The notes under the pieces are model-generated. The model saw only the letters and a program-made list of their open reading frames with translations, had not been told where the DNA came from and made no database searches. Source: Streptomyces erythrochromogenes (GTDB lineage Bacteria > Actinomycetota > Actinomycetes > Streptomycetales > Streptomycetaceae). Taken from it: 64,000 nt of DNA. Shown piece by piece: positions 12,997 through 39,100 of the stretch. The stretch lies in contig NZ_CP108036.1 of NCBI RefSeq assembly GCF_036170895.1, positions 1,116,001-1,180,000 on the forward strand. The letters run 5' to 3'. Position numbers and translations under genes: made by a program. How positions within the stretch are numbered: position 1 is the first letter of the stretch; every line of letters begins with the position of its first letter.

Positions 12997-13028
12997 GCGG
13001 TGGCCCGTCCCCCCGGACGGGCCACCGC
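12997..13028. terminator. Perfect 14-bp stem-loop
   Basis: GCGGTGGCCCGTCC and GGACGGGCCACCGC pair perfectly around CCCC. It lies between the esterase start and the orphan fragment at 13142-13297, so it probably ends transcription coming from the araB side and separates the esterase-glucosidase genes from it. Confidence 0.65.
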
Positions 13029-13141
13029 GCCTCCCCGCACCCCGCGTTCTCGAGGGCGGGTCTCGGCCTCCCCCCGGACCGCCCCGGAGAGATCGACGTC
13101 GCGGAAGAGAAGCACCGCGGGCCACACCGGATCGGCCGGGG

Positions 13142-13297
13142 TCACTGCGTCGCCGCTGGTGCGGGTGGCGTCGACGTGGCGGTGTCCGCGTGGTCGTCGA
13201 AGTCGACGACCACGCGGGGCGCGGGGGCCGTCCCGGTCACCGTGAGCTGTGCGGTGAGGACCGGGTGCTCGGCGGAGCGGTCGGCGGCTGTGAAGCA
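13142..13297 (-). pseudogene. Orphan C-terminal remnant of an unidentified protein
   Basis: Downstream of the epimerase a minus-strand frame reads FTAADRSAEHPVLTAQ, TVTGTAPAPRVVVDFDDHA and a Pro/Thr/Ala tail to a TGA at 13142-13144. It opens just after an in-frame stop, next to an ATG in another frame preceded by GAAAGG. This looks like the start and the end of a gene joined by a large internal deletion. The beta-rich tail would suit a glycosidase C-terminus, but the family cannot be assigned. Confidence 0.35.
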
Positions 13298-13312
13298 TCA
13301 CGTCGGCCTTTC

Positions 13313-14401: not shown

Positions 14402-14482
14402 GCGACTACTCCGTTCGACGAGGCGGGGAGGGGGGCGATGCCCGCCGTATGGGCGGGCGTCATCGGCTCGGGGCGGGCGAGG

Positions 14483-15100
14483 TCACATCCCCTGAGCCAG
14501 TCGGTGGTAGGCCTGGTTCCAGCGCAGCTCCTTGGTGAACCGGCGGATGGCGGTGCCGGCGTCGATCACCAGGAGTTCCACGCCGAGCATCTCCGCGAGG
14601 TCGTCGAGTTCCTCGGCACCGAGGGGGCCGGAGAGTACGGTGTGGTCGGCGCTCCGGCTGTCAGCCAGGCCTCGGTGGAGGTGCGCAGGTCCGGACGCGG
14701 CTTCCAGACGGCGCGGGCGAACCGGCAGGTTGGGCAGCGGAGCCGGGGCTTCGACCACGTCGACCTCGTTGGCGACCAGCCGGAAGCGGCCGCCCATGTC
14801 GAGTGGGTGTGCACCACTCCCCCGGCCTCGGGCGGGTGCCGGTAGACGTAGGCGTGTGCGGCGGTGTCGGAGGAGGGCGCGTGGTCGCCTTCGACGACGT
14901 TCCCGTCGGGGTCACTGAGCATCGTGTTCCGGGGCGACAGCTCGTCGTGGGAGACGCCGCTCGGCTTGATGACCCACAGGTCCTCGGCGGGGAACGCGGG
15001 GGGGGACATTGCCCGCCGTCCAGACCACCAGGCCATTACGGACGAGTTCCCGGCGGAGGCCGCTGACCTGGCGACGAACCAGGTCGATGGTCGCGTTCAC
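14483..15100 (-). pseudogene. araD-araA fusion remnant (L-ribulose-5-P 4-epimerase start joined to L-arabinose isomerase end)
   Basis: A GTG at 15100 overlaps the araB stop and begins VNATIDLVRRQVSGLRRELV, the start of an AraD-type epimerase. The frame shifts at an 8-base G/C run (14998-15005). It then continues with VIKPSGVSHDELSPRN and SSDTAAHAYVYRHPPEAGG, including the metal-ligand segment VVHTHSTW. Here AraD is cut off. The sequence passes into GGRFRLVANEVDVVEAPAPL and, in changing frames, ARAVWKPRPDLRTSTEAWL and ELRWNQAYHRLAQGM to a TGA at 14483. These are the last ~115 residues of an L-arabinose isomerase. More than 100 codons of araD and about 380 of araA are gone. The usual order is araB-araD-araA, so one deletion explains the join. 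Confidence 0.85.
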
Positions 15101-16827
15101 CGTACCTCGCTCGGGTCGGTCAGGGCCGTGGTCGGGGTGGTAGGCGTGGTCAGGGCGGCGTTGCGGATGCGGCTCAGTCGGTGGAGCAGCTTGTCCGGCC
15201 CGGTGCCGAAGTGGTCGTGCAGGGCGCGGTACTCGGCGTACAGCGCGTCGTAGGCGTCGGCCCGGCCGGGGTCGGGCTGGTACGCCCCCCGGAGCACCCG
15301 GCCCATGGCCGCCGCCGCCGAGCGCACATCCGGGTGCGCCCCGGCGGCGACGGCGGCGTGGATCGCCGAGCCGAGGGCCGGACCCTGATCCGACTGGGCG
15401 AGCGAGACGGGACGGCGTAGTACGTCGGCGTAGATCTGCATCAGCAGGGCGTTCTTCTTCAGGCCACCGGTGACGATGAACTCGGAGACGGGGACACCGC
15501 CCTGTTCCAGGGCCTCGACGATGACACGGGTACCGAAGGCGGTGGCCTCCAGCAGGGCACGGTAGATCTCCTCGGGGCGGGTGTTGAGTCCGAGGCCTAC
15601 GATCACGCCGGAGAGGTTGTGGTCGACCAGGGTGGAGCGGTTGCCGTTCATCCAGTCGAGAGCCACCAGGCCGTGCCCACCGACGGGCTGGGCGGCGGCC
15701 TTGCGGCTGAGGAGCTCGTGCCGGTCTGCACCGACCGCCTCGGCCTCGGCGAGGTAGTGGGCCGGGAGGCCCTGACGCAGCCACCAGGCGAAGATGTCGC
15801 CGACGGCACTCTGACCCGCCTCGTAGCGATAGGAGCCGGTGACGATGCCGTCCTCGACCACGCCGCAGATGCCAGGGACGTCTGCGAGGGCGGCGCCGTT
15901 GACGACGTGGCAGGTGGAGGTGCCCATGAGGGCGAGGAGTTGGCCGTTCTCGACGGCCCGAGCGGCCGGTGCGGCCACGTGCGCGTCGACGTTGCCGGCG
16001 GCCACCGCGATGCCCGCGGGCAGCCCCGTCCACTCCGCCGCCCGGGCGGTGAGCGAGCCGACCCGGGAGCCCAGCGGGGCGAGGGGGTGTTCCAGACGGG
16101 TGCGGGCGAAGTCGGCGAACCCGGGGTGCAGGGCGGCGAGGTACTCCTCGCTCGGGTAACCGCCGTCCTGGAAGATGCCGCTGTATCCGGCCGTGCAGGC
16201 GTTGCGGCTCTCGACGCCGGTGAGCTGCCAGACGATCCAGTCGGCTGCCTCGATCCACCGCGCGCAGGCGGCATAGACGGCCGGGTCCTCCTCCAGGACC
16301 TGGAGCGCCTTGGCGTACTGCCACTCGGCGGAGATCCTTCCGCCGTAGCGGGAGATCCACTTCTCTCCGCGTGCGTGGGCGAGGGCGTTGATGCGGTCGG
16401 CCTGGTCCTGGGCCGCGTGGTGCTTCCAGAGCTTGGGCCAGGCGTGCGGGTGAGCGGCCCACTCGGTGGTCTCGGCGAGCGGGGTGCCGTCGGCGAGCAC
16501 CGGCAGGACCGTGCTGGCGGTGAAGTCGGTGGCGATGCCGATGACGTGAGCGGGATCGACGCCGGAGACGGCGAGCGCAGCGGGAACGACGGTGCGCAGT
16601 ACCTCACGCCAGTCCTCGGAGTGCTGCAGGGCCCAGTCAGGCGGCAGTGGGTGCCCGGTGCCGGGTAACTCGCGCTCGATGACGGCGTGCGGGTACTCGT
16701 GGACGACGGTCGCGAGCTCCTGTCCGTCATGCACGCGGACCACCACGGCACGACCGGAGAGGGTGCCGAAGTCGACGCCGACGACGTAGCTGTCCGAGCC
16801 CCGGGCGGCGGCAGGGATCACGGTCAC
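15097..16827 (-). CDS. araB: L-ribulokinase
   Basis: An FGGY kinase of 576 residues if started at GTG 16827, which has AAGGA about 8 nt upstream. An ATG at 16857 adds ten residues but has its AGGAG only 2 nt away. The N-terminal loop VVGVDFGTLSGRAVVVRV is diagnostic of AraB. GTSTCHVV, DWMNGNRSTLVD and TGGLKKNALLMQIYADVL follow as in the family. It phosphorylates L-ribulose. The stop overlaps the GTG of the araD remnant (GTGA), showing the original coupling. With AraA and AraD destroyed, the enzyme has no visible substrate supply or product sink here. A LacI-type operator lies upstream at 16903-16916. Confidence 0.92.
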   Translation of the reverse strand: MTVIPAAARGSDSYVVGVDFGTLSGRAVVVRVHDGQELATVVHEYPHAVIERELPGTGHPLPPDWALQHSEDWREVLRTVVPAALAVSGVDPAHVIGIATDFTASTVLPVLADGTPLAETTEWAAHPHAWPKLWKHHAAQDQADRINALAHARGEKWISRYGGRISAEWQYAKALQVLEEDPAVYAACARWIEAADWIVWQLTGVESRNACTAGYSGIFQDGGYPSEEYLAALHPGFADFARTRLEHPLAPLGSRVGSLTARAAEWTGLPAGIAVAAGNVDAHVAAPAARAVENGQLLALMGTSTCHVVNGAALADVPGICGVVEDGIVTGSYRYEAGQSAVGDIFAWWLRQGLPAHYLAEAEAVGADRHELLSRKAAAQPVGGHGLVALDWMNGNRSTLVDHNLSGVIVGLGLNTRPEEIYRALLEATAFGTRVIVEALEQGGVPVSEFIVTGGLKKNALLMQIYADVLRRPVSLAQSDQGPALGSAIHAAVAAGAHPDVRSAAAAMGRVLRGAYQPDPGRADAYDALYAEYRALHDHFGTGPDKLLHRLSRIRNAALTTPTTPTTALTDPSEVR

Positions 16828-16902
16828 TTTCTCATCCTTCGCACGGGAAACCGGCATTGCTCCTGCCGAGTTGAAGGGGGCGTCTCGCTCGATGGGCGAC
16901 AG

Positions 16903-16916
16903 TGTTAGCGTTAACA
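16903..16916. promoter_or_regulatory. LacI-family operator upstream of araB
   Basis: TGTTAGCGTTAACA is a near-perfect palindrome with one mismatched pair near the centre. It matches the site before the importer operon (18295-18308) at 13 of 14 positions. The gene between the two sites is a LacI-type regulator, so this is very probably its binding site. Confidence 0.75.
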
Positions 16917-17019
16917 ATCACCCTGTCAAGGGACCAATGGAGCCCTCGACCGAGTGCGGCCGACGCGGCGGAGAGCGTGGGCCGCTGCGGCGGTCAGCCC
17001 CGGGTCCGACGGTGCCGGC

Positions 17020-18051
17020 TCAACGGCGGGTGACGGGACCCGCGCTGCGACGCAGCACCATCTCGGGCGGGATCCGCACGTGAGTGCGGGTGTGCGCGAC
17101 GCCCGCCAGCTCCTCGACGAGCAGTTCCAGGGCCCTGCGGCCGAGCTCACCGAAGTCCTGGCGCACCGTGGCCAGGGGCGGGGTGAAGTAGGCGGCCTCG
17201 GGAATGTCGTCGAAGCCGACCACGCTGATGTCGCCCGGGATCGAGCGTCCGGCCTCGTGCAGGGCGCGCAGCAGGCCGAGCGCCATGTGGTCGTTGGCGC
17301 AGAAGACGGCGGTGACGTCGTCCAGTTCGGCGATCCGCAAGCCCGCCTGGTAGCCGGCGCGCGCACTCCAGTCGCCGGACTCCACACGCGGCACGGGGGC
17401 TCCGGCGGCCTCCAGCGCGCCGCGCCAGCCCTCCTGGCGGTCCTGGCTCTCCATCCAGCCGGCCGGGCCGGCCAGGTGGTGCACGGTACGGTGGCCCAGA
17501 TCGAGCAGGTGCCTGGTGGCCGCTTCGGCGCCGGACCGGTTGTCCACCGAGACCATGGGAACCCGCGACTGGCTGCCCGGTCCGACCGCGACCACCGGCA
17601 CGGAGCTGGAGAGCCTGGCCACCGCGCTGACGGCGGAGATCTGGGGCGCGATCACGACCACGCCCTCCACGCCCTGGGCGCGCAGCCGGTCGACGGCCTC
17701 CTGAACCGAGCGGCCGTCCAGGGAGTGCAGACTCGTCACGCTGACGAAGTACCCCGCACTGCGCGCAGCCTGCTCGATGCCGTGCAGCATCGAGGCGGGA
17801 CCGTACAGGGTGGATTCGAAGCTGACCACGCCGAGGGTTTGCGAGCGGCGGGTGACCAGGGCGCGGGCAGCGGAGTTGGGCCGGTAGTCCAGCTCCCGGA
17901 TGGCGGCGAGCACGCGCTCCCGGGTGCCGGGCCGCACATGCGGGGCGCCGTTGAGCACCCGGGACACCGTCTGGTGGGACACGCCGGCCAATCTCGCCAC
18001 GTCCGCCATCACAGGGTGGCGCCGCTCGGTCCCGGCACTGTCGTTTCCCAC
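17020..18051 (-). CDS. LacI family transcriptional regulator, probable arabinose repressor
   Basis: About 343 residues from GTG 18051; GTG 18057 is an alternative closer to the GGAGG. The HTH reads VMADVARLAGVSHQTVSRVL, followed by the hinge helix NSAARALVTRRSQTLGVV and a periplasmic-binding-like sugar domain. It lies between araB and the chvE-gguA-gguB operon. Matching operators occur on both sides, one about 240 bp upstream of its own start, which suggests joint control and autoregulation. The ligand is inferred to be L-arabinose from context. Confidence 0.88.
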   Translation of the reverse strand: MGNDSAGTERRHPVMADVARLAGVSHQTVSRVLNGAPHVRPGTRERVLAAIRELDYRPNSAARALVTRRSQTLGVVSFESTLYGPASMLHGIEQAARSAGYFVSVTSLHSLDGRSVQEAVDRLRAQGVEGVVVIAPQISAVSAVARLSSSVPVVAVGPGSQSRVPMVSVDNRSGAEAATRHLLDLGHRTVHHLAGPAGWMESQDRQEGWRGALEAAGAPVPRVESGDWSARAGYQAGLRIAELDDVTAVFCANDHMALGLLRALHEAGRSIPGDISVVGFDDIPEAAYFTPPLATVRQDFGELGRRALELLVEELAGVAHTRTHVRIPPEMVLRRSAGPVTRR

Positions 18052-18294
18052 TCGCACTTCCCTCCTCGACTCCGGGCTACGGTACGCCACCGACCGCCGA
18101 CGAAGGCTGTGCGAGCGGTGACGGACAAGCGGATGCGGCGGGTTACCACCATCCAGCGGCAGGGACACTGCGGCGTGCAGCCGGCCACTCCGAGAGCCGC
18201 CCACTGCCCAGCCCGGGGGCCAGGGACACAGTGGCTGATCGCCTGCGCCGTTGTGAACCCAACGGTGATCCGAACAGACCCTTGACGGCACACT

Positions 18295-18308
18295 TGTGAG
18301 CGTTAACA
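18295..18308. promoter_or_regulatory. LacI-family operator upstream of the sugar importer
   Basis: TGTGAGCGTTAACA lies 143 bp before the binding-protein gene and differs by one base from the site at 16903-16916. The long leader between it and the GTG at 18451 has no other gene. Confidence 0.7.
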
Positions 18309-18450
18309 CTCAGGTATCGCCAGGCCGGAGCCGCTGCAACCCGGACTTCCCACAGCGCGAGAAAACGACTCCCGGCCGACCCCGCTCGACCGCTTCCGGT
18401 CGCCCAGCCGGGTCGCACTGTGCCGGTCGCGGAACATCACTGGAGGAACT

Positions 18451-19545
18451 GTGCGGAAGCTTTCAGCGGGCCTTGTCGCCGTGGGTCTCACGCTGTCGCT
18501 GGCAGCCTGCGGCCAGAGCGCCAACGGAGCGGGCGACGGCGGGGCCGGCGGAGACGCCAAAGGGGGCCTCATCGGCATCGCGATGCCGACCAAGTCGTCG
18601 GAGCGCTGGATCAACGACGGCAACAACATGGTCAAGGAGTTCCAGGCCAAGGGTTACAAGACCGACCTCCAGTACGGCGACAACGTCGTGGAGAACCAGG
18701 TCTCCCAGGTGGAGAACATGATCACCAAGGGGGCCAAGCTGCTGGTGATCGCCGCCATCGACGGTTCCTCGCTCACCAACGTGCTGCAGAAGGCCGCCGA
18801 CGCCCACATCCCCGTCGTCTCCTACGACCGACTGATCCGTGGCACGAAGAACGTCGACTACTACGCGACCTTCGACAACTACAAGGTCGGTGTCCTCCAG
18901 GGCAGTTACATCGTCGACAAGCTCGGCCTCAAGGACGGCAAGGGCCCGTTCAACATCGAGCTGTTCGCCGGCTCACCGGACGACAACAACGCCACGTTCT
19001 TCTTCAACGGTGCGATGAGCGTCCTCAAGCCGTACGTCGACGACAAGAAGCTGATCGTGCAGAGCGGCCAGACCTCCTTCAACCAGATCGCCACACTGCG
19101 CTGGGACGGCGGTCTCGCCCAGTCCCGGATGGACAACCTGCTGAGCAAGTCGTACACCGCCGCCCGCGTCGACGCCGTGCTCTCGCCGTACGACGGCATC
19201 TCGATCGGCATCATCTCGTCACTCAAGGGCGTCGGCTACGGCACCGGCCAGTCACTGCCCGTCGTCACGGGCCAGGACGCCGAACTGGCCTCGGTGAAGT
19301 CGATCATCGCTGGCGAGCAGACCCAGACCGTCTACAAGGACACCCGCCAACTGGCCAAGACCGCGGTCCAGATGGGCGACGCGCTCCTGACCGGCGGCAA
19401 GCCCGAGGTCAACGACACCGGCCAGTACGACAACGGCGTCAAGACCGTACCGGCGCAGCTGCTCCAGCCGGTCAGCGTCGACAAGGAGAACTACCAGAAG
19501 GTCCTGGTGGACAGCGGCCAGTACACCGCGGACCAGCTCAAGTAG
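18451..19545 (+). CDS. chvE: Sugar ABC transporter substrate-binding lipoprotein (ChvE family)
   Basis: 364 residues from GTG 18451, with GGAGG 5 nt upstream. The signal peptide ends in a lipobox, LSLAACG (Cys about residue 20), so the protein is lipid-anchored outside the membrane. The mature part is a type I periplasmic-binding fold of the ChvE/XylF kind: [49 protein letters not shown] and [15 protein letters not shown]. This branch binds several aldoses including arabinose, xylose and glucose. It delivers sugar to the ATPase and permease immediately downstream. Confidence 0.93.
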
Positions 19546-19647
19546 CCCCCGGGGCCCGACCGACGGGTCCGACGATGCCGAACCGGCGGTGCGACGCACG
19601 GGAGACCGCCCGGCACCGCACCGCCCCGACGATACGGATGCACCACC

Positions 19648-21195
19648 ATGGCCCGACCCGTTCTCGAGATGCGGTCGATCAGCAAGACGTTTCCCGGTGT
19701 CAAGGCTCTCTCCGAGGTCAACCTGACCGTCGCCGCAGGTGAGGTCCACGCCGTCTGCGGTGAGAACGGCGCCGGCAAGTCCACACTGATGAAGGTACTC
19801 AGCGGGGTCCACCCTCATGGCGGCTACCAGGGCGAGATCTACTTCGAGGGCGATCCCTGCCGGTTCCGGGACATCCGGGCCAGCGAGCAGCGCGGCATCG
19901 TGATCATCCACCAGGAACTCACGCTGGTGCCCTACCTGTCCATCGCCGAGAACATCTTCCTCGGCAACGAGCACGCCACCCGCGGCGTCATCAGCTGGCA
20001 CCGGACGCTGACTCACGCCGCCGCACTGATCCGGCAGGTCGGACTCGACGAGAGCCCGCACACCAGGATCGCCGATCTCGGCGTGGGCAAACAGCAGTTG
20101 GTCGAGATCGCCAAGGCGCTCGCCAAGAAGGTCAAGCTGCTCATCCTGGACGAGCCGACGGCCGCCCTGAACGACGAGGACAGCCGCAAGCTGCTCGACC
20201 TGATCCTCGAACTCAAGGCTCAGGGCATTTCCTGCATCCTCATCTCGCACAAGCTGAACGAGATCGCCCGGGTCGCCGACGCCGTCACCATCCTGCGCGA
20301 CGGGCGGACCATCGAGACCATCGCGATCGGGGTCGAGGGCATCTCCGAGGAGCGGATCATCCGCGGCATGGTCGGCCGTGACCTGGAACACCGCTACCCC
20401 GAGCGCGCCCCGGAGATCGGCGAGGTCGCCTTCGAAATCGAGGACTGGAGCGTCCGGCACCCGATCGACCACCGACGGAAGGTGGTCGACGGCGCCTCGC
20501 TGCACGTGCGTCGAGGCGAGATCGTCGGCATAGCCGGCCTCATGGGCGCCGGCCGCACCGAGTTGGCCATGAGCGTCTTCGGCCGCTCGTACGGACGGTG
20601 GACCGGGGGCCGGGTGCGGCTGCACGGCCGGGAGATCCGTACCCGGACGGTGCCGGAGGCGATCGGGCACGGCATCGCGTACGTGACCGAGGACCGCAAG
20701 CAGCTCGGCCTCAACCTCAACGACGACATCAGCCGGAACATCTCGCTGAGCTCCCTCGGCAAGGTCGCGCGGCGAGGCTGGGTCAACCGGCACGAGGAGG
20801 CCCGGATCGCCGAATCGTTCCGGCGGACCATGAACATCAAGGCCCCCTCGGTGTTCGCGGAGACCGGCAAGCTCAGCGGCGGCAACCAGCAGAAGGTCGT
20901 CCTCAGCAAGTGGATCTTCGCCGAGCCGGAGGTGCTGATCCTCGACGAACCCACCCGGGGCATCGACATCGGCGCCAAGGCGGAGATCTACACCGTCATC
21001 GCCGAACTCGCCGCCCAGGGCAAGACGGTACTCGTCATCTCCTCCGAACTCCCCGAACTCCTGGGCCTGTGCGACCGGATCTACACCATGGCCGAAGGCC
21101 GGATCACCGGTGAGGTGACCCGCGCGGACGCCACCCAGGAATCCCTCATGCGCCTCATGACCATGAGCGCGGCATACCCCGACAAGCAGGTGTGA
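19648..21195 (+). CDS. gguA: Multiple-sugar ABC transporter, double ATPase subunit
   Basis: 515 residues with two ABC cassettes, the standard arrangement for this sugar family. Cassette one has Walker [10 protein letters not shown], the degenerate signature [15 protein letters not shown] and Walker B LLILDEP. Cassette two lacks a classical Walker A (GLMGAGRTE), as usual, and has signature LSGGNQQKV and Walker [13 protein letters not shown]. It starts at ATG 19648 and ends 3 bp before the permease start. It energises pentose uptake with the neighbouring binding protein and permease. Confidence 0.95.
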
Positions 21196-21198
21196 GGC

Positions 21199-22434
21199 AT
21201 GGCCCGGACCCAGACCACCCCAGACACCACGCTCGGCACACCGGAGACCGGCCAACGTCCGTCGGCCGGTGCCGTACTGGCCCGCGCGCTGCGCGGCAAC
21301 CTGCGCCAGTACGGGATGCTGGTCGCGCTGGCGCTGATCGTGCTGCTGTTCCAGTTCTGGACAGACGGCATACTGCTCCAGCCGCTCAACATCACCAACC
21401 TGATCCAGCAGAACGGCTACATCCTCATCCTGGCGATCGGGATGATGATCGTCATCATCTCCGGGCACATCGACCTGTCGGTCGGGTCGCTCGCCGCCTT
21501 CGTCGGGGCCGCCGCCGCGGTGATGATGGTCCGACACGACGCGCCATGGCCCGTGGCGCTGCTGGCCGCGCTGGCGATCGGGGCTCTCGCCGGCGCCTGG
21601 CAGGGCTTCTGGATCGCCTACCTCGGGATCCCCTCGTTCATCGTCACCCTGGCCGGCATGCTGCTGTTCCGGGGTGGCACCCAGATCCTCCTGCAGGGCC
21701 AGTCGGTGGCGCCGTTCCCCAAGGGCTTCCAGAACATCAGCAGCGGCTTCCTCCCCGAAGCCGGCCCCCGCACCGACTACCACAACCTCACCCTGCTACT
21801 GGGCCTCGCAGTGCTGGCCATCGCGATCCTTCAGGAGGTGCGCGGACGGCGGCGGGCCGCCTCGTACGGACGGGAACCGCTCCCGGCCGGGCTGTTCCTG
21901 GTGAAGCTCGGCGCGATCACCGCGGCCGTGGTGGCCTTCACGCTGCTGCTGGCCAGCTACCACGGGGTGCCGATCGTTCTGCTGATCCTCGGCGTCCTGC
22001 TGGTCGGCTTCGGATACGTGATGCGCAACTCGATCCTCGGCCGGCACACCTACGCCATCGGCGGCAACGAGGCGGCGGCGAGGCTGTCCGGGGTGAAGAG
22101 CAAGCGGGTCGTCTTCCTGGCCTTCGTCAACATGGGCGTCCTCGCGGCCCTGGCCGGGCTGGTCTTCGCCGCGCGACTCAACGCCGGTACCCCGCAGGCC
22201 GGCATCAACTTCGAGTTGGAAGCGATCGCCGCCGCCTTCATCGGCGGCGCCTCCGCCAGCGGCGGTGTGGGCACCGTCCTCGGTGCGATCATCGGCGGTC
22301 TGGTGCTGGGCGTGCTGAACAACGGCATGTCGCTGGTCGGTGTGGGTACCGACTACCAGCAGGTGATCAAGGGCCTGGTACTGCTCGCGGCCGTCGGCTT
22401 CGACGTCTACAACAAGCGCAAGGTTGGAGCCTGA
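21199..22434 (+). CDS. gguB: Multiple-sugar ABC transporter permease
   Basis: 411 residues, with an N-terminal cytoplasmic tail and about ten membrane segments in the pattern of the BPD-2 (RbsC/XylH/GguB) family. The coupling region GGNEAAARLSGVKSKRVV faces the ATPase. SGHIDLSVGS and IGGASASGGVGTVLGAIIGG are conserved segments. It is the last gene of the chvE-gguA-gguB operon and forms the channel for the imported pentose. Confidence 0.95.
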   Translation: MARTQTTPDTTLGTPETGQRPSAGAVLARALRGNLRQYGMLVALALIVLLFQFWTDGILLQPLNITNLIQQNGYILILAIGMMIVIISGHIDLSVGSLAAFVGAAAAVMMVRHDAPWPVALLAALAIGALAGAWQGFWIAYLGIPSFIVTLAGMLLFRGGTQILLQGQSVAPFPKGFQNISSGFLPEAGPRTDYHNLTLLLGLAVLAIAILQEVRGRRRAASYGREPLPAGLFLVKLGAITAAVVAFTLLLASYHGVPIVLLILGVLLVGFGYVMRNSILGRHTYAIGGNEAAARLSGVKSKRVVFLAFVNMGVLAALAGLVFAARLNAGTPQAGINFELEAIAAAFIGGASASGGVGTVLGAIIGGLVLGVLNNGMSLVGVGTDYQQVIKGLVLLAAVGFDVYNKRKVGA

Positions 22435-23584: not shown

Positions 23585-26203
23585 TCAGGACGGGTCGCCG
23601 TACTGGAGGCCGCGTCCGTTGGTGCCGACATAGACGCGCCCGAAGGTGTCGGGATCGCCGGTGATGACGCCGACACCGCCGATGCTGCCCCACTGGTGGG
23701 CGGCGTCGTTGACGCGGAGCCAGGTGGCGCCCTTGTCGGTGGAGCGGAAGACTCCGGTGACGTCCTTGACGGTACCGATCAGGTACAGGGCCTGGTAGTC
23801 GGCGCCCGGCGCCGCCTTGCCGAAGCCGAGGGCAGAGGCGGACTTCACCGTGGTGAGTGCGGTGAAGGTCCGGCCACCATCGGTGGAGCGCAGCAGCCCC
23901 TTGTCGCCGCCGGAGATCCACAGGTCCCCGGCGATGCCGGGGACGGCCGCGAGCCGGCCGGTGGGCAGGTTGGTGGCGCGGGCGGTGAAGGTCGCGCCGC
24001 CGTCGGTACTGGCGTAGAGCGTGCCGCCGGCCAGTGAGTAGAAGGTCTTGGCCGAGGAGCGGTCGGCGACGACCACGGCGCCGGTGCCCAGGCCGCTGAC
24101 CTTCGACCAGCTCGCCCCCTTGTCGGTCGAGCGGTACGGGGCCTGACCGGCCTGGGTCCAGACGATGGTGGAGCCGTCCGCCGCGAGCGCGACATGTCCG
24201 GTGTCGGCGCTGTCCACCGGCTCTGTCGTGAAGCCGGTCCAGCTGGTGCCGCCGTCGGTGGAGTAGGCGCCGTCCTTGTCGCCGCCAAGGCCGACGCGGA
24301 CCATCAGCGCGGGGTTGGACTGGGCGAAATCGATGTCGGTGCTGTTGGTCATCATCGGGTTCTTCAGTCGCCCGGCGGGCACCTTGGTCAGGGAGTCGTG
24401 GCGGAAACCGCCTTGGTCGCCCATGGCGGTGACGACTTGGGCGCCGCCGGGCGGGGCGACCGCGTCCAGCAGCGCGGTCTCCTCCAGCCCTCGGGCCCCC
24501 GCGCTCCAGTGGCTGGTGCCGCCGCTGTCGGAGGCGTTGGCGTCCTTGCTGCGCCAGATGCCGTTGCCGGTGCCGTACAGCACGTGCCCGGAGTTGAAGG
24601 GATCGATGGCCAGGGCGGTCATCCAGTGCCCGGTGCCGGTACCGACGTAAGGCGCGCCGGAGGCGTCCCGCACCGATTTCTCCGCCAGTGCCTTCCAGGT
24701 CGTACCGCCGTCGGTGGTCCGGTAGATCTCGTCCTCGGGCCACCAGCGGTCGAGGGTGGTGACCATCACCGTGGACGGCTTCTGCGGGTCGACGGCCAGA
24801 CCGGAGAACCCGTAGCTGCCCTGGGACGGGGAGACGTTCTTCCACGCCCCGCCGGCCGGCATGTACTTCCACACCGAACCCGCCGTCACGCCGTTGGGCC
24901 CGAGGGCGTTGGTGTACGTCAGGTACAGCGAGCCGTCACCGGAGAGCACACCGTGCTGCGGCATCTGGCCGGTGGGCTGCCCGGAGACGGCCTGCCAGGT
25001 GCTGCCGCCGTCGGTGGAGCGGTACAGGGAGGTGGACTTGTCGGCGACGCCGACATAGACCGTCTTGCTGCCGGCCGGGCCGTACGTCACGAAGGAGATG
25101 CCCGCGCCGCTGCTCGCCCCGTCCTTGACGGGGAACGAGGAGACCTGACTCCATGTCGCGCCGTGGTCGGTGCTGCGCCACAGGCCGTTCTTGCGGGTGC
25201 CCAGCAGGAGGGTGCCGTTGTCCACAGGGTTGATCGCCAGCCGCTCGCCCGCCCCGCGGCCGTCCTCGTTGCCGCCCAGCTTGAACGGCAGCTCGGTGCG
25301 CTTGAAGGTGCGGCCCCGGTCCGTGGAGCGCAGGATCGCGCCGTTGCCGGCCCACTCGTTGGTGTAGGTGCCGGTCGCGAGGTAGAGCCGGTCGGGGTCG
25401 ACGGGGTCGGTGGCCAGCGCATCGATGCCCAGAAGGTTCCAGTCCTTCTCGCCGAGCCAGTCGGTCAGCGGGATCCACTGCTCGGCCGCGGTGTCCCAGC
25501 GGTAGGCGCCGCCCATGTCGGTACGCGCGTACAGCAGACCCTTCTCGCGCGGGTTGAACACCAGCCCGGTGACGTAACCGCCTCCCACCACCTGGGCGTT
25601 GTTCCACACATACGGTCCGGCTGCCTGGGTCTCGGCCGTTTTCACCAGCTTCCACTGCTGGTTGGTGCTGCCCTTGCCGGGATACTGGATGACTGCCGCG
25701 CCCTCGGCCGTGGAGCCTCCGGAGACGTCCAGGACCTGGCCGCTCCTGCGGGAGGTGAAGGTGACGGCGTCGGAACCACCCACATCGTCGATCCGCCACT
25801 CCTGGGAGGTGGAGGAGCTGGCGGTCTGCTGCTCGGCGGCGGCCGCCTGGACGGTCGAATCGCCCGCTATGCCCAGCACTTTGCCGCTGTTGCGGTTCAC
25901 CAGCTCGTAGTAGCCGCCCCCGGTGGGTCTCAGCTTCCACTGCTGGTTGGCGGTGTTCTGGTCGGTCCACTGCTGGATGCGGGTGCCGTCGGCGGTCGAG
26001 AAGGCGTTGACGTCAAGCGCCTTGCCGCTGCGTACGGAAACCAGCCGGTAGTACGCATCGCCGTCGACCGTCGCGGCTTGGGAGTCCTCCTGCACGAACA
26101 GGAGATACGGCACGACGATGGCGGGCACACCGAGCAGCAGACCGGTCGCGGTCCAGCGACGGCGGTGACGCCCGCGGCGCCCGCCGGTCGTGGGGATCTT
26201 CAT
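23585..26203 (-). CDS. GH74 xyloglucanase with N-terminal ricin-type (CBM13-like) domain
   Basis: 872 residues from ATG 26203, with AAGGAG 8 nt upstream. A basic N-terminus and one hydrophobic helix (residues ~20-38) form a signal peptide or anchor. Residues ~47-190 are a ricin-type beta-trefoil with repeated NQQWKL motifs (three lobes). From ~205 come the two seven-bladed propellers of GH74 with repeated RSTDGG/TW elements. Catalytic acids are present: Asp229 in YARTDMGGAYRW and Asp596 in MGDQGGF. GH74 enzymes cut the beta-1,4-glucan backbone of xyloglucan outside the cell. A carbohydrate module at the N-terminus is less common than a C-terminal CBM. The gene diverges from the CBM42 sigma factor. 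Confidence 0.93.
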   Translation of the reverse strand: MKIPTTGGRRGRHRRRWTATGLLLGVPAIVVPYLLFVQEDSQAATVDGDAYYRLVSVRSGKALDVNAFSTADGTRIQQWTDQNTANQQWKLRPTGGGYYELVNRNSGKVLGIAGDSTVQAAAAEQQTASSSTSQEWRIDDVGGSDAVTFTSRRSGQVLDVSGGSTAEGAAVIQYPGKGSTNQQWKLVKTAETQAAGPYVWNNAQVVGGGYVTGLVFNPREKGLLYARTDMGGAYRWDTAAEQWIPLTDWLGEKDWNLLGIDALATDPVDPDRLYLATGTYTNEWAGNGAILRSTDRGRTFKRTELPFKLGGNEDGRGAGERLAINPVDNGTLLLGTRKNGLWRSTDHGATWSQVSSFPVKDGASSGAGISFVTYGPAGSKTVYVGVADKSTSLYRSTDGGSTWQAVSGQPTGQMPQHGVLSGDGSLYLTYTNALGPNGVTAGSVWKYMPAGGAWKNVSPSQGSYGFSGLAVDPQKPSTVMVTTLDRWWPEDEIYRTTDGGTTWKALAEKSVRDASGAPYVGTGTGHWMTALAIDPFNSGHVLYGTGNGIWRSKDANASDSGGTSHWSAGARGLEETALLDAVAPPGGAQVVTAMGDQGGFRHDSLTKVPAGRLKNPMMTNSTDIDFAQSNPALMVRVGLGGDKDGAYSTDGGTSWTGFTTEPVDSADTGHVALAADGSTIVWTQAGQAPYRSTDKGASWSKVSGLGTGAVVVADRSSAKTFYSLAGGTLYASTDGGATFTARATNLPTGRLAAVPGIAGDLWISGGDKGLLRSTDGGRTFTALTTVKSASALGFGKAAPGADYQALYLIGTVKDVTGVFRSTDKGATWLRVNDAAHQWGSIGGVGVITGDPDTFGRVYVGTNGRGLQYGDPS

Positions 26204-26685
26204 GGGGGGTGTTCTCCTTGCATGCCACCAGAGGAAAGTGGATCCAGCTACCGAAACGGCCGGATCCGACTCCTTGTGGTCACAGGCCCCGCAAAGGGTT
26301 GCCTTGAGCCGGGAACTTTTCAGGTCACCTCGTGGTGCGGTAGGCGTTGATCAGTGGCCGGGTGACACTGGTGCCCTTGGTGTCCTCCATGGCCGACTCC
26401 CACAGATCATCTGGGTGCGTTCGGGTAGCCGGCGGCCAACTCGCCGACGGCCCATTCAAGACCGACGATCTCGGAGGGAGACAGCTCCGGCCTTGGAGAT
26501 GGCGTGCCGTGCAAAGGCCGTGGCCACGTCCACAGCGCCGAAACGCGTGGGACGGGGGTCGGAACGGCCAGGGCCCTTCCAAGTCGGCGCGGGCCGGTCC
26601 AGTGATCCAGCTTTGGCCGCATACCCTTGCCGACGCTAAGGTGCGGCGCCGTACTCGGCGGATCGCTCCCCTGAGGGAGGTTGGA
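26204..26685. promoter_or_regulatory. Divergent intergenic region between GH74 and the CBM42 sigma factor
   Basis: About 480 bp carrying the outward promoters of both genes. An AACTTTTC element at 26314-26321 recurs upstream of the GH10-GH62 gene at 28434-28441, each in an otherwise GC-rich leader. A minus-strand frame ending near 26325 (AMEDTKGTSVTRPLINAYR) has protein-like character, but I cannot assign it. No complete gene is seen here. Confidence 0.4.
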
Positions 26686-28236
26686 ATGGGGCTCATGGAT
26701 GCGGACCACGCGGGGCTGGTTACCGCGGCGCAGGCCGGTGACGATCGGGCGCGCGAGGAGCTGATCGCCGCGTACCTGCCGTTGCTCTACAACATCGTCG
26801 GGCGAGCGCTGAGCGGACATGCCGACATCGACGACGTCGTCCAGGAAACCCTGCTGCGCGTGGTGCGCGACCTGCCTGCCCTGCGTGCCCCGGAGAGCTT
26901 CCGGTCCTGGCTGGTGTCGATCACGCTCCGCCAGATCAATACCCACTGGCACCGGCAACGCGCCTTCGCCGGCCGGACCACGGTCATCGACGAGGCACTC
27001 CAGATACCGGACGCCGGCGCCGAACTTGAGGACGTGACGATCCTGCGTCTGCATATGTCGGACGAGCGCCGTCTGGTTGTCGAAGCCGGCCGGTGGCTCG
27101 ACCCGGACCATCGGGTGCTGCTGTCGCTGTGGTGGCAGGAATGCGCCGGCTCGCTGAGCCGTGACGACATCGCCGCCGCGACGGGGCTCACTGTCGCCCA
27201 CGTCGGAGTACGCCTGCAACGCATGCGCGAGCAGCTGGAACTGGGCCGCACGATCGTCGCCGCGCTGGAGGCCGACCCGCGCTGTCCGCAGCTGGGGGAG
27301 ACCGTCGTCGACTGGGACGGTCACCGTGCATCGGTGTGGCGCAAGCGGATCGCGCGGCATACCCGCGGCTGCCCGGTCTGCATGGCGACGACGACAGAAC
27401 GGGTTCCGGCCGAACTACTGCTCCTCAGCCTCGCGCCGCTGGCCGTCCCGGCCGGACTCATCGCCGCGCTGGCCGCCAAGGGCCTGCTGTCGGGTACGGC
27501 CGCGAGCGCCGCCGGGCTGGCCACGACACACGTCGCCGTCAGCACGGCGACGGGGGGAGGCGGTCTGCACAGCTCGCTGATCGGCAAACTCTTCGCGGTC
27601 AGCGCTCATCCGGTGGCGAGCCTCGCCACCGGCGCGGTGCTCATCGCCGGGACCGCCACCTACGCGACGTGGCCCGAACCGGCGCACCGGGTGCCCGGCG
27701 TCATCGCCGCTCCCACGGTCGGCAATCCCACGCCGGTCCCGTCGCGCACCACCACGTCGGCCGGACCGTCCCCGGTGAGTCCGTCCGCCGTCGCAGGCAC
27801 TGTTCCGCTGGGCGCACAGTCGCTGGAGTCCGTGGACGAGCCCGCCCTGTACCTCACGTATGCCGGCGACTTCGCGACGCTCGGCCGAGTCTCCGCGTCC
27901 AGCAGCGCGCAGACACGGCAGCGGGTCACCTTCACGGTCATCGGGGGGCTGGCCGACACACGGTGCGTCACCTTCCGCGCCGCCGACGGCCGCTATCTGC
28001 GCCATCGTGACCTGCGGCTACGGCTGAGCACCAACGACGGCAGCGAACTGTTCCGTGAAGACGCCACCTTCTGTCCGCAACCCGGGGCGGTCGCCGGGTC
28101 GGTGACCCTGCACGCGCACAACTATCCCGGATCGGTCATCCGCCACCGCGACGGTGGCGTCTGGCTCGATGGCTCCGACGGCACTCGGGCCTTCGCCGGC
28201 CAGGCTTCCTTCATCATGCGCAGGGCCTGGTCTTGA
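26686..28236 (+). CDS. Membrane ECF-type sigma factor with zinc anti-sigma-like motif and C-terminal AbfB (CBM42) domain
   Basis: 516 residues from ATG 26686, with GGGAGG upstream. Residues ~20-90 form sigma region 2 (LLYNIVGRALSGHADIDDVV, QETLLRVVRDL). Residues ~139-190 form region 4 with an HTH (SRDDIAAATGLTVAHVGVRL). A linker leads to HTRGCPVC (His225, Cys229, Cys232), the HX3CX2C signature of zinc-binding anti-sigma domains. A hydrophobic stretch spans 244-268 and a stronger membrane helix 309-327. A Pro/Ser/Thr-rich linker follows. Residues ~376-516 match the AbfB arabinose-binding fold (YLRHRDLRLRL, FREDATFCPQPG, SVIRHRDGGVWL, ASFIMRRAW). The protein thus combines sigma, regulator, anchor and sugar sensor. 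It lies between GH74 and GH10-GH62. If both hydrophobic stretches span the membrane, the C-terminus would be inside; one span puts it outside, where the ligand is. Confidence 0.85.
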   Translation: MGLMDADHAGLVTAAQAGDDRAREELIAAYLPLLYNIVGRALSGHADIDDVVQETLLRVVRDLPALRAPESFRSWLVSITLRQINTHWHRQRAFAGRTTVIDEALQIPDAGAELEDVTILRLHMSDERRLVVEAGRWLDPDHRVLLSLWWQECAGSLSRDDIAAATGLTVAHVGVRLQRMREQLELGRTIVAALEADPRCPQLGETVVDWDGHRASVWRKRIARHTRGCPVCMATTTERVPAELLLLSLAPLAVPAGLIAALAAKGLLSGTAASAAGLATTHVAVSTATGGGGLHSSLIGKLFAVSAHPVASLATGAVLIAGTATYATWPEPAHRVPGVIAAPTVGNPTPVPSRTTTSAGPSPVSPSAVAGTVPLGAQSLESVDEPALYLTYAGDFATLGRVSASSSAQTRQRVTFTVIGGLADTRCVTFRAADGRYLRHRDLRLRLSTNDGSELFREDATFCPQPGAVAGSVTLHAHNYPGSVIRHRDGGVWLDGSDGTRAFAGQASFIMRRAWS

Positions 28237-31095
<2,859 letters not shown>

Positions 31096-31674: not shown

Positions 31675-32613
31675 ATGCAGACTGCACGGCAGGCCGCGCG
31701 GCAGCGCAGGCGTAGACACAAGCTGATGATGGGAACGACGGCACTGACCGCCGCGGGCGTCCTCCTCTGCCTGGTGACGGCCATGCTCCCCGATCCCAAG
31801 GCCGAGGTCGGGACCGACGTGGCGGCCCCCGCCGCCACCCAGGCGGAAGCCATGCCCTCGGCCCCGACGAGCCCCGCGCCCCCGACGGACAGCTCGCATG
31901 CCGCGGCAACCGCGACCGCGGCCGTCGGTACGGCCACCGCGGCGCCACAGCCTTCGGCGAAGGCAACCCCGCAGGCGGCGTCCAGCACGGCACCGTCGGC
32001 AGGCCGCCTCCAGCCCGGGACCACCTACAAGGGCGTCGCCACCGCCTACGCCGCCGGCGACGGCAACGGCGCCTGCCTGTTCGGCCCGAGCGACGACCTC
32101 ATGATCGCGGCGATGAACACCACCGACTACGAGTCGTCCAGGGCGTGCGGCGCGTACGTGCGCGTCCGCGCCGCGAACGGCGCCTCGATCACGGTCCGGA
32201 TCACCAACGAATGCCCACTGCCCTGCGCACCCGGACAACTGGACCTCAGCGAACAGGCCTTCGCCAAACTGACCGATCCCAAGCTCGGCCGTATCCCGAT
32301 CACCTGGAGCCTGCTGAGCCCCCAGACGTCCGGCACGATCTCCGTCCGGTACAAGACCGGTTCCAGCCCCCACTGGTGCGGCATCCAGGTGATCGACCAC
32401 CGCAATCCGGTCGCACGGCTGGAGGTACGCACCACCAAGGGCTGGCGGAGGCTGCCTCGTACCGACTACAACTACTTCCTCTCCGCCGACGGCAGCGGGT
32501 GCGGCGGCGCGATGAGGATCAGCGACATCTACGGAGAGCAGCTGACGGTCGACGGGACCGCGCTGCTGCCGAACGTCGCACAACCGACCCGAGTCCAGTT
32601 CGCCCCGCACTGA
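31675..32613 (+). CDS. Expansin-like secreted protein
   Basis: 312 residues from ATG 31675. A basic N-terminus and one hydrophobic helix (~16-38) are followed by an 80-residue Ala/Pro/Thr linker. The globular part begins at ~115. A double-psi beta-barrel (TYKGVATAYAAGDGNGACLFG, RACGAYVRV, VRITNECPLPCAPGQLDLSE) and a second domain (VRYKTGSSPHWCGIQVIDHR, LEVRTTKGWRRLPRTDYNYF) match the two-domain layout of bacterial EXLX1-type expansins. These loosen cellulose-xyloglucan contacts without hydrolysis. It fits with the neighbouring GH74 and GH10-GH62 genes. It is translated separately and lies just upstream of the ECF sigma gene. Confidence 0.82.
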   Translation: MQTARQAARQRRRRHKLMMGTTALTAAGVLLCLVTAMLPDPKAEVGTDVAAPAATQAEAMPSAPTSPAPPTDSSHAAATATAAVGTATAAPQPSAKATPQAASSTAPSAGRLQPGTTYKGVATAYAAGDGNGACLFGPSDDLMIAAMNTTDYESSRACGAYVRVRAANGASITVRITNECPLPCAPGQLDLSEQAFAKLTDPKLGRIPITWSLLSPQTSGTISVRYKTGSSPHWCGIQVIDHRNPVARLEVRTTKGWRRLPRTDYNYFLSADGSGCGGAMRISDIYGEQLTVDGTALLPNVAQPTRVQFAPH

Positions 32614-32700
32614 AACCACGCCGCAGCCGGTGGCGGATCCGGGGTACGGCCGCACTGGAGCGCCCTGGGTCGTACCGGGCGCTGATACGCTGCCGCCCGG

Positions 32701-33273
32701 ATGTTAACGCACACATTTGCAGAAGGGGCGACCGACAGCGTGGTCCTCGATGACGCGTCCGCGGAGTTCCACGACTTCTTCGAACGCCACTACGCCGAAC
32801 TCGCCCGGTTCGCCCATCTCCTGACGGGCGAGGCGGACGGTGCCGACGATCTGGCCGCGGACGCCCTGATCGCACTGTGGCAGCGCTGGGACCGGCTGCG
32901 CCAGGCCGAGTACCCACTCGCCTACGCGCGTGGCGTGGTCGCCAACCTGGCACGGTCACGGATCCGCAGCGCGGTGCGCGAGCGCCGCCGGATCGCCCTG
33001 TTCTGGTCCCGCGGCGCTGAGCCGTTGGACGGTCCGGACGTGGCCGCCGTGGTGGACGTGCGTACTGCTCTCGACCGGTTGCCGTTCCGGAAGCGGGCAT
33101 GCGTGGTCCTGCGGCACGCCTTCGACCTGTCGGAGAAGGACACCGCTCTGGCGCTCGGAATATCGGTCGGTACGGTGAAGAGCCAGACCTCGAAGGGGAT
33201 GGCCGAACTGGAACGGATGCTGGGCAGCACAGGAGCAGCCGGGGAACTGTTGGCGGGGAGGAGGAGCCGTTGA
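32701..33273 (+). CDS. ECF (SigE-like) RNA polymerase sigma factor
   Basis: 190 residues from ATG 32701; a GTG at 32740 is an alternative start. Region 2 (EFHDFFERHYAELARFAHLL, ADDLAADALIALWQRW) and region 4 (LDRLPFRKRACVVLRHAFDL, LALGISVGTVKSQTSKGM) are complete and there is no extra domain. The stop overlaps the next gene's TTG start (TTGA). That gene encodes a single-pass membrane protein, the classic sigma/anti-sigma pair. It would redirect RNA polymerase when the partner senses an outside signal. Confidence 0.92.
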   Translation: MLTHTFAEGATDSVVLDDASAEFHDFFERHYAELARFAHLLTGEADGADDLAADALIALWQRWDRLRQAEYPLAYARGVVANLARSRIRSAVRERRRIALFWSRGAEPLDGPDVAAVVDVRTALDRLPFRKRACVVLRHAFDLSEKDTALALGISVGTVKSQTSKGMAELERMLGSTGAAGELLAGRRSR

Positions 33274-36184: not shown

Positions 36185-39100
36185 TTGACGGGCGACGCCG
36201 TCGAGTGGCTCGGTGACAAGAGCGCCGACGTATTGGAGGATGTCGGCTGGCAGGGGGGCGCCAACGCGGTCCGCAACACGGCGAACTCCGCGGCGAACCG
36301 TCTGGGCGCCGACGTCGGGGAGGTCGAGCTCGGCCAGAGCGACGATCCCAAGCAGCTGGTCCACGGCAGCGCGAGCAGCCTCCGTGCGACCGCCGGGCAC
36401 CTGAGTGACTTCCACGCTGCCTTCACCCGTACCGGGGATGGCCTGAAGAAGCTGGGCACGGACGGCATCAAGGGCGCGACGGCCGACGCCTTCCGGGACT
36501 CCGTCCAGGAGAAGGCGCCCCGCTGGTTCGCGGCCGCGGCCGCCTTCGAGACGGCGGCCGGCGCGGTCAGCCGCTTCGCCGACACGGTGACGTGGGCGCA
36601 GGGGCAGGCGAAGGAAGCGATCGACGAGTACAAGACCGCCGTCAAGCTGTCGGAGAACGCCCACGCCGCCTACGAGACGTGGGTCAAGGACTACGAGTCG
36701 GCTGTCAAAGCGCGGCAGGATCCGCTGCCGGCCCGCCCCATGGGTTTCACCGACCCGGGTGCGGACGGCATCAAGGCCGCCCGGCAGAAGCTGGCCGAGG
36801 CGCGGCGCCAGCGCGACGACGTGGCCCGCTCGGTGGCGCAGGCGTTGGAGAAGGCCCGGGACGCGGCGCCGAAGGTGTCGGCCGCTGACGCCGCGCTGGT
36901 CGAGATCGTCCGCAAGGGCGCAGAGGTCGAACACTTCCTCGGCGGAATCGCCAAGGGTACGGCTGGCCTGGTCAACTTCGGCCGCGGGCTCAGCCCCCAG
37001 GACCCGTACAACATCACCCATCCGACCGTGGCCGAGATGGGCCTCAACAGCATGGGGGCCAGTTTCCTCACGACGGCCAACGACCCAGGCGCCGCTGCCA
37101 AGGCCATGGCCGACAGCGCGATGCAGGACCCCTTCGAGTTCGGCGGCAAGCTCGTCCCGGAAGCCGCCGGCTCCAAGGGGAGTGGCCTGCTGTCCGGCGC
37201 TGCCCGCAGAGCCGCCACAGCTGCCAAACTCCTCGACGACGCAAAGCACCTGGACGGCCACAAGCCGGGCGGCAGCCGCGGGGATCACGAACAGAACCCG
37301 GACAGCAACGGCAAGCGGTGCAGCGAGACGGTGTGCAAGAGGGACCCGATCGACATCGCGACCGGCCGCATGCTGCTGCCCGCGACCGACATCGCCCTGC
37401 CCGGCGCACTTCCACTCGTCTTCCGGCGCACCTTCGACTCCGCACGACGCTCAGGGCGCTGGTTCGGGCCGACGTGGTCGTCAACGGTGGACCAGCGGCT
37501 GGAGATCGATTCCGATGGTGTGATCTTCAGCTGTGACGAGGGCAGTCTCCTCGCCTACCGCCACCCGGCCCCTGGGGCTCCGGTCATGCCCACGCACGGC
37601 CGGCAGTGGCCACTGGACCGGGTCCCGGGCGGTTACACCGTCACCGATCCTGACACCGGCAGGGTCTGGCACTTCGCCGACCACAGTGACGAGCTCGCGC
37701 TCCTGGCCCAGATCGACGACCGCAACGGCCGCTGGATCGCCTTCGAGCACGACGAGGCGGGTACTCCGAAGGCAATCGTCCACCACGCCGGCTACCACCT
37801 GAAACTCACCACGACCGAAGGCCGGGTGACGGCCCTCCACCTCAAGGGGGCTGCGACGGACGGATCCGACCAGGAGATCCTGCGCTACGGCTACACCGAT
37901 GGCCATCTCACCTCGGTCACCAACTCCTCCGGCCTCCCCCTGAGCTTCGCCTGCGACGAACACGGCCGCATCACCTCGTGGACCGACTCCAACGGAAGCC
38001 GCTTCGACTACATCTACGACGATCAGGACCGCTGCACCTACCAATCAGGCACGAACGGACACCTCGAATCCACCTTCACCTGGGACGATATCGATCCCGC
38101 AACCGGCCTCCGCATAACCACCCTCACCAGCGGTCTGGGGCACACCGAGCGTCACCTGATCAATGACCGATCACAGGTAGTCGCCGAGATCGACCCCCTG
38201 GGCGCGGTCACCCGCTTCGAGTACGACCGCTACAACCGACTGCTGTCACGCACCGATCCGCTGGGCTACGTCAGCCGCTTCGCCTACGACGAGCACGGCC
38301 GTATGACGGTGATGGAGCGTCCGGACGGACGGCAGGCGCGGGCCGAGTACGACGACAACGGGATGCCGATACGCCTCGTCGGAACCGACGGGAACGTCAC
38401 GCGCCAGACCTTCGACGAGCGCGGCAACCGTACCTCGGTGACCGACCCCACGGGCGCGACGACAGAGTTCGCGTACGACGCGGCCGGCTGGCTCACCTCG
38501 GTGACGGACCCGCTCGGCGCCACCACCCGGCTCATCCTGGACCGCCGGGGTCTTCCCGTCGAGGTCACCGATCCGTTGGGTGCCACGACCCGCTATGAAC
38601 ACGATGCCTTCGGCCGCACGGTCCGCGTCATCGACCCTCTCAGCGGGGAGACGCGAATGGAGTGGACGGTCGAGGGCCTGCCCTCCCGGCGCACCGCACC
38701 CGACGGCACGGTGGAGTCCTGGACGTACGACGGCGAGGGCAACTGCCTCAGCCACACGGACGCGATGGGAGGCACGACCCACTTCGCGTACACGGACTTC
38801 GACCTCCTGACGGCCCGCACAGGCCCGGACGGAGTCCGCCACGAGTTCTCCCACGACACCAACCTGCGGCTGACGCACGTGACCAACCCCCAGGGCCTGA
38901 CCTGGGACTACGCCTACGACGCGGCAGGCCAACTGGTCACGGAGACCGACTTCGACGGCCGGGCGCTGAGCTACGACTACGACCCTTCGGGCCGTCTGAC
39001 CTCCCGGGCGAACGGCCTGGGCCAGCGCATCGACTTCACGCACAACGCGCTCGGCCAGGTGATCCGCAAAGAGGTCGAAGGCAACGGGGCCACGACCTTC

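Follow-up and report, generated by a model that had tools for sequence, protein, structure and literature searches.

A putative one-protein arabinoxylan sensor of Streptomyces that joins an ECF sigma factor, a zinc anti-sigma-like element and a CBM42 domain, and its predicted GH10-GH62 target

Sigma factors of groups ECF52 and ECF53 are described, in the excerpts available of the two sources, as fusions of a sigma domain with a zinc finger, one or two membrane helices and a carbohydrate or glycosidase domain, and their release by proteolysis has already been proposed (PMC8999054, PMC10766802). According to a 2024 review, as excerpted, experiments have yet to validate the carbohydrate and glycosidase domains that these factors are predicted to carry (PMC10766802). 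The first characterised ECF52 member, SCO4117 of Streptomyces coelicolor, is reported in the accessible part of its description to carry a smart00776 sensor, to govern a pleiotropic developmental regulon and to act on the proposed motif CSGYN-17-SRHA (PMC5826349). A CBM42 outer domain on a sigma regulator is on record, in the portions available, for RsgI5/SigI5 of Clostridium thermocellum, members of a cellulosome-regulating family (PMC4711584, PMC12203970). For RsrA, a zinc anti-sigma factor of Streptomyces, the available excerpt gives Cys11, His37, Cys41 and Cys44 as zinc ligands, helices at residues 11-23, 29-39, 51-60 and 71-84, and a CHCC site that serves as redox switch (PMC4960319).

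Here we describe a locus in a 64,000-nucleotide stretch of the Streptomyces erythrochromogenes genome (the window), whose features are collected in Table 1. We consider it quite probable, on the strength of sequence comparisons, that its sigma-AbfB protein is a one-protein, membrane-anchored arabinoxylan sensor that switches on a GH10-GH62 enzyme. According to this model, the N-terminal ECF sigma factor would be silenced by the RsrA-like CHCC zinc anti-sigma element that is fused to it and acts in cis, and one membrane helix together with a disordered linker would put the CBM42 domain outside the cell, where it would meet arabinofuranosyl side chains of xylan. Contact would induce proteolysis or a conformational change that opens the lock and frees the sigma part, which would then bring RNA polymerase to GTTACG-N17-GCCTCC (28443-28471) so that a leader ORF and the GH10-CBM13-GH62 gene are transcribed. 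For its own expression the sigma gene would rely on a vegetative-type promoter, without the autoregulatory element seen in many relatives with other sensors.

Table 1. Features of the sigma-AbfB locus (positions within the window)
Feature	Position	Strand	Basis or remark
GH74 xyloglucanase, N-terminal ricin-type lectin	23585..26203	-	Pfam; PDB match
CTAAGGT, vegetative-type -10-like, before sigma gene	26636..26642	+	TANGGT in 44/63; putative function
Sigma-AbfB gene	26686..28236	+	516 aa, frame without internal stop
ECF sigma core, residues 22-185	26749..27240	+	TIGR02937 E 1.3e-18; PDB sigma-E 1or7
Zinc anti-sigma-like motif C200-X24-H225-X3-C229-X2-C232	27283..27381	+	spacing identical across family
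Hydrophobic stretch, residues 241-266	27406..27483	+	recurring prolines; AF2 helices 242-246, 256-264; putative topology
Membrane segment, about residues 302-327	27589..27666	+	more basic before than after; predicted
Pro/Thr/Ser linker	27667..27810	+	sequence; pLDDT <50 up to residue 370
AbfB/CBM42 domain, residues 379-510	27820..28215	+	PF05270 E 4.9e-40; 9fnk fold
Box 1, ATAACG-N17-GCATCA	28382..28410	+	alignment; strict pattern 37/63
Box 2, TTTTCT-GTTACG-N17-GCCTCC, predicted target promoter	28437..28471	+	62/63 loci
Small leader ORF, 51 aa	28571..28726	+	TGA overlaps ATG of GH10-GH62
GH10-CBM13-GH62 enzyme, predicted target	28723..31095	+	Pfam GH10, Ricin_B, GH62

Domain architecture and the zinc anti-sigma-like element

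The fusion of sigma and AbfB parts is real and far beyond chance. Among 8000 candidates scored in a homologue search, 3108 proteins matched at E <= 0.001; all 120 among the matches listed carry AbfB together with Sigma70_r2, and the organisms given among the matches listed are Streptomyces or Kitasatospora only. The protein classifies as an ECF sigma factor by its Sigma70_r2 match (Pfam, residues 26-92, E 1.5e-13) and by TIGR02937, which spans both sigma regions named in an earlier sequence-only reading of this DNA; region 4 taken alone reaches E 0.098, under the Pfam cut-off. In the AF2 model, confidence is high for the sigma helices (pLDDT 80-94, the linker 91-130 being poor), for the zinc region as far as residue 230 (87-91) and for the AbfB blocks (88-96, with 78 for the last block). 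Residues 268-370 remain below 50, a range that takes in the Pro/Thr/Ser linker as far as residue 370.

The built-in zinc anti-sigma-like element claimed by the sequence-only reading is borne out by its spacing. C-X24-H-X3-C-X2-C is present in 109/109 rows, window included (107 distinct loci, L091 and L094 being counted twice), so that every row has the ZAS spacing C/H-X24-25-H-X3-C-X2-C; it recurs in 76/76 proteins of a second census that overlaps with this set. The HX3CX2C motif at H225, C229 and C232 had been recognised correctly, whereas the probable fourth ligand, C200, had been overlooked. Alignment of 24 members with various outer domains revealed C200, W210, G212, W218, R219, H225, C229 and C232 as invariant. 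A zinc-region profile searched against the PDB at E up to 10 retrieved only two weak matches, 3hug (E 0.09), which we take to be RslA, and 8rlz DdvA (E 0.37), both of them anti-sigma factors; in Pfam nothing convincing was found for this region, with zf-HC2 appearing at E 0.11 in 1 of 18 proteins. The AF2 model places helices at residues 201-206, 216-228, 242-246 and 256-264, with a short one at 230-234 in between, an order that resembles the helix order given for RsrA in the excerpt available.

Membrane topology and the CBM42 domain

The membrane helix placed earlier at residues 309-327 stands as a segment of about residues 302-327, but another hydrophobic stretch, residues 241-266, had gone unmentioned. 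The number of spans decides on which side of the membrane the CBM42 domain would lie. The segment at about 302-327 is flanked asymmetrically: in 50 of 54 members the preceding 15 residues are more basic than those that follow, with a net charge of up to +9 just before it, and the segment therefore likely runs from inside to outside. By Kyte-Doolittle hydrophobicity the two stretches are on a par in the family (means of 1.87 for 241-266 and 1.88 for the second); in the window protein the values are 2.30 and 1.73, and the second stretch is the stronger one in just 27 of 54 members. A transfer-energy scale was used as well, with ad hoc weights. This equal hydrophobicity would suit an arrangement with two membrane spans and a cytoplasmic CBM42, yet we hold such a topology to be very improbable in view of the charge bias around the second stretch, the poor first stretch of several members, and the conserved AbfB cysteine pair and Pro/Thr/Ser linker. 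Residues 241-266 probably represent the last helices of the anti-sigma fold and no membrane span: prolines recur within them across the family, they are only weakly hydrophobic in L101, L158, L175, L176 and others, and their position matches that of the last two RsrA helices, which is why we read them as part of the lock. An outer CBM42, as proposed in the sequence-only reading, thus keeps the support of the charge bias for one span, although 241-266 is equally hydrophobic; a single span with CBM42 outside is favoured, not proved.

The AbfB domain has the pair Cys427/Cys463 in 66/66 rows (L091 and L094 being counted twice), and each of the two meets a cysteine when aligned with a solved AbfB, a conservation that suits an oxidising location outside the cell. 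Residues 379-510 combine the PF05270 match with a beta-trefoil fold, upholding the earlier assignment to AbfB/CBM42. In Foldseek, the model superimposes on 9fnk with an rmsd of 1.4 and a TM score of 0.89-0.90 by target length; the molecule name of 9fnk is anti-sigma-I factor RsgI5. Among the same 66 rows, the RH signature, whose residues we take to bind arabinofuranose in AbfB subdomains, is kept in the beta subdomain of all rows (again with L091 and L094 entered twice) and in the gamma subdomain of 53, and is absent from the alpha subdomain. On account of this distribution, a CBM42 with up to two arabinofuranose-binding sites is plausible.

Neighbouring enzymes, the predicted promoter and the sensor family

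The flanking genes are GH74 and GH10-CBM13-GH62, as read before and now backed by Pfam and PDB matches, with xyloglucan hydrolase 2cn2 as best PDB match of GH74 (E 2.7e-186). A scan of named genomes yielded 65 loci, and counts were made on the 62 whose match was long (L037-L098); L099-L101 were left out for their partial match, L099 being recognised later as a complete member of the AbfB class that has the motif. GH10-GH62 is next to the sigma gene in 59 of the 62 named loci, the criterion being a start at most 800 nt downstream, with small ORFs in between allowed and some homologues matching just part of the window's enzyme. Sigma identity falls below 80% in 12 of these 59 loci, with a lowest value of 68%, and the loci are related, so that such counts are not independent events. 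The exceptions are L046, with GH74 next, and the Micromonospora loci L091 and L094. The other window neighbours tested occur in few of the compared loci. GH74 is arranged in tandem in 39 of the 62 loci, following GH10-GH62 (or sigma in L046), so that it could be co-transcribed there; it is divergent in five, as in the window, and lies elsewhere in the locus in one, and the fetched DNA of the remaining 17 contained no long match to it. In L092 and L097, which were kept in the zinc, motif and adjacency counts, the sigma-AbfB frames are interrupted (457 and 405 aa), either through decay or through a sequencing error, with GH10-GH62 and GH74 alongside otherwise normal.

A leader ORF of the kind that precedes the enzyme in the window (MTRHTHEPR...TRDPRGES), variable in length and putatively coding, was found in 45 of 60 loci; translational coupling or leader-peptide control is possible. 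Further away, an apparent pentose-use cluster adjoins the locus at 10412-22434 (GH1, acetyl xylan esterase, aldose epimerase, FGGY kinase, LacI regulator and sugar ABC transporter); its transporter and LacI genes were compared, and the transporter genes are closely common to few loci. A DPBB (expansin-like) protein and a small ECF sigma factor are encoded downstream at 31675-33273 and occur together in four compared loci, and an RHS-repeat protein with a T7SS signal domain and a C-terminal Ntox30, a polymorphic-toxin layout, is found at 36185-40750.

The sigma-GH10 intergenic region holds strongly conserved blocks, and GTTACG-N17-GCCTCC is the sole exact match to this sequence in the window. 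Its relaxed form, GTTAYS-N17-GYCTYC, is found in 62 of 63 loci, window included, either between sigma and enzyme or a short way downstream; the spacer is 17 nt long in 61 motif-bearing loci of the 63, L037 being the one without the motif. Together with the conserved adjacency, this placement of the family promoter argues for local control of GH10-GH62 as the sequence-only reading had it. Upstream of the sigma gene of the AbfB class the motif occurs in 0/63 loci, and TANGGT within 120 nt before it in 44/63 only, from which we infer a vegetative-type promoter and a missing autoregulatory element. No Rfam element was found in 26000-29000. Searched with up to one mismatch in the window's own genome, GTTACG-N17-GCCTCC gave 53 matches versus 38 for the reversed pattern and thus no sign of a large regulon; GTTAYS-N16-18-GYCTYC gave 12 versus 3. 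Three among the 12 look canonical: this locus, a paralogue's own promoter and a CAP-protein gene.

Direct control of GH74, which the sequence-only reading had included, found no such backing. The 482-bp GH74-sigma intergenic region contains zero motif matches with up to two mismatches, a motif-free upstream region that led us to discard GH74 as a direct sigma target in this genome, and it is probably not one. A separate element, AAGGCAACCCTTTGCGGGGCCTGTGACCACAAGGAG at 26204-26330 before GH74, is conserved in most divergent loci aligned and has no relation to the sigma motif; a stretch similar to it precedes the sigma gene in L060.

AbfB loci alone served to define the motif, which was first tested, with spacers of 15-18 nt, on 46 family loci, where 22 of 23 matches lay beside a sigma gene; narrowing the spacer to 16-17 nt after this test removed one match, the one far from sigma. 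In 41 members with other sensors (14-21 kb each, both strands), all 18 exact matches lie at most 300 nt sense-upstream of sigma (binomial P 8e-39, treating related loci as independent), versus at most 2 upstream matches for any of 199 permuted motifs. The exact motif is absent upstream in the other 23 of the 41; ten of these have a match with one mismatch, at 64-91 nt upstream in nine of the ten. ECF autoregulatory promoters usually lie upstream of the sigma gene, and GTTAYS-N16/17-GYCTYC, placed before sigma in 18 of 18 cases in the other-sensor relatives, behaves as a family promoter. In three Micromonospora loci, TTTCCGTTAYS-N17-GYCTYC stands right after the sigma stop; the gene that follows AbfB-sigma and motif differs there and is no evident xylanase. 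In L186 the motif is on the divergent strand, and in the AbfB member L185 none was found in the fetched DNA.

The same sequence might instead be the operator of another regulator that travels with the sigma genes. This is unlikely in our opinion, even though another strongly conserved element, box 1, stands beside the motif in Streptomyces. Box 1 follows its strict pattern in 37 of 63 loci, is conserved in Streptomyces with its spacer, lies mostly 61 or 52 nt upstream of box 2 and matches the genome once when up to 3 mismatches are allowed. Considered as a candidate second sigma promoter, it shares the 17-nt spacing of box 2 but has another downstream half. An operator is hard to reconcile with two half-sites at 16-17 nt, with a sigma family that accompanies it alike in Micromonospora, in the window's genus and in a second family of the same order as that genus, with a motif that follows AbfB-sigma even where the next gene differs, and with its position before the sigma gene, as usual for ECF autoregulation. 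We therefore retain the promoter reading.

Across 41 genomes, GTTATS-N16/17-GTCTCC matched 48 sites versus 8 for the reversed pattern. By a tally done by hand, with signal sequences judged by eye, 24 of the 48 precede family sigma genes, 18 precede secreted or surface-looking proteins and 6 are unassigned. The 18 proteins comprise 8 alginate-lyase-like ones, 6 secreted beta-helix-looking ones of one family (Pfam, run on 3 of the 6, gave weak PATR only), 2 with CAP domains, 1 AbfB protein adjoining an AbfB-sigma, and 1 pectinesterase-GH28 encoded divergently from a sigma with Pel9A-like beta-helix sensor (L245, 2653-7730). Sigma proteins with an outer domain ending in VPQY-TR (L160, L167, L180, L184, L187, L249, L257) occur in 7 of 25 genomes of the window's genus, exactly the seven in which an alginate-lyase-like gene bears the motif (hypergeometric P 2e-6); a VPQY-type sigma is also present in four genomes of another family, where the exact motif matches include no alginate-lyase-like gene. 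The VPQY-type outer domain had no Pfam match in L160, L187 and the related L149 and L172; Pfam searches covered 20 of the 46 family proteins and, later, L187 and L245. In the window's genome, the motif lies 74 nt ahead of the gene for sigma L148, which has a CAP sensor, and is found at a CAP-protein gene too. From the 48 sites and the VPQY and CAP cases, predicted targets tend to match the sensor type across the family.

This tendency bears on a further reading, in which CBM42 is an anchor or a binder of other arabinose glycans, such as those of own or neighbour cell walls, and the protein really responds to something else, for example redox stress at the CHCC site. In RsrA, according to the excerpt, that site acts as a redox switch (PMC4960319), which lends this reading some appeal, as does the commonest sensor class of the 76-protein census, CAP (31/76, classes set by crude string rules), which is not a plant-glycan module. 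We nevertheless regard it as rather unlikely: the zinc core stays fixed while the sensor changes, and targets follow the sensor, AbfB going with GH10-GH62 or an AbfB protein, Pel9A-like with pectinesterase-GH28 and CAP with CAP. Arabinoxylan sensing by CBM42 remains our preferred reading, and we lean slightly towards a wider model of widespread, modular one-protein sensors for glycans and surfaces in Actinobacteria, which would have a fixed core of sigma, zinc lock and membrane segment, an exchangeable outer domain, a shared GTTAYS-N16/17-GYCTYC code and sensor-matched secreted targets; the CBM42 class would have dropped autoregulation and moved the promoter to the enzyme, becoming a linear, dedicated arabinoxylan switch.

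Comparison with known systems

With a concrete predicted ligand, a concrete predicted promoter and a single predicted target unit, the locus makes the domain prediction for ECF52/ECF53 testable, and the promoter code predicts targets for family members with sensor domains of no known kind; the compact sensor design may also be of use for sugar-inducible expression in Streptomyces.

The sigma-AbfB protein could be viewed as just another SCO4117-like ECF52 developmental regulator, given an identical order of parts in the portion of the SCO4117 description at hand (PMC5826349). We find this hardly credible. The same genome has L189, an ECF52-type protein bearing NPCBM (the domain that we take smart00776 to denote), as a separate gene with 21% identity (E 0.016) over the sigma domain; by its parts L189 would be the SCO4117 orthologue, and ECF52 membership of sigma-AbfB was rejected on these values. 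As far as the accessible part of its description goes, SCO4117 differs from sigma-AbfB in its sensor, its regulon and its proposed motif (PMC5826349). The family has the ECF53 traits of a C-terminal zinc finger, a membrane span and carbohydrate or glycosidase domains, and ECF53 is the likely group of sigma-AbfB, assigned by layout of parts.

In RsgI5/SigI5, judging by the excerpts available, sigma and anti-sigma are two genes, the sigma factor belongs to the SigI family and the regulator has an RsgI N-terminal domain, a family that does not occur among the Pfam matches of sigma-AbfB at E <= 1. Homology between the two as whole systems was not found either; by analogy, they may work alike. The RsrA excerpt likewise shows CHCC ligands, spaced C-X25-H-X3-C-X2-C versus X24 here, but RsrA is a separate redox protein, whereas the CHCC element here is fused to its own sigma factor and membrane-bound.

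The sequence-only reading had called the combination uncharacterised. Fused ECF52/ECF53 factors are published, as the available portions of these sources attest (PMC5826349, PMC8999054, PMC10766802), but no account of a CBM42 version or its targets was found in the open-licence literature, so the claim survives in part. The layout is of a known kind, and the target and promoter signature of sigma-AbfB appear to be new. What sigma-AbfB shares with ECF53/ECF52 factors, as excerpted, is the joining of sigma, zinc finger, membrane helix and carbohydrate domain; what sets it apart from those described there is its CBM42 sensor, its predicted promoter signature and its predicted dedicated GH10-GH62 target. 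As judged from sequence comparison, the promoter code, the predicted GH10-GH62 target, the missing autoregulatory element in the AbfB class and the match between sensor and target would be the new elements.
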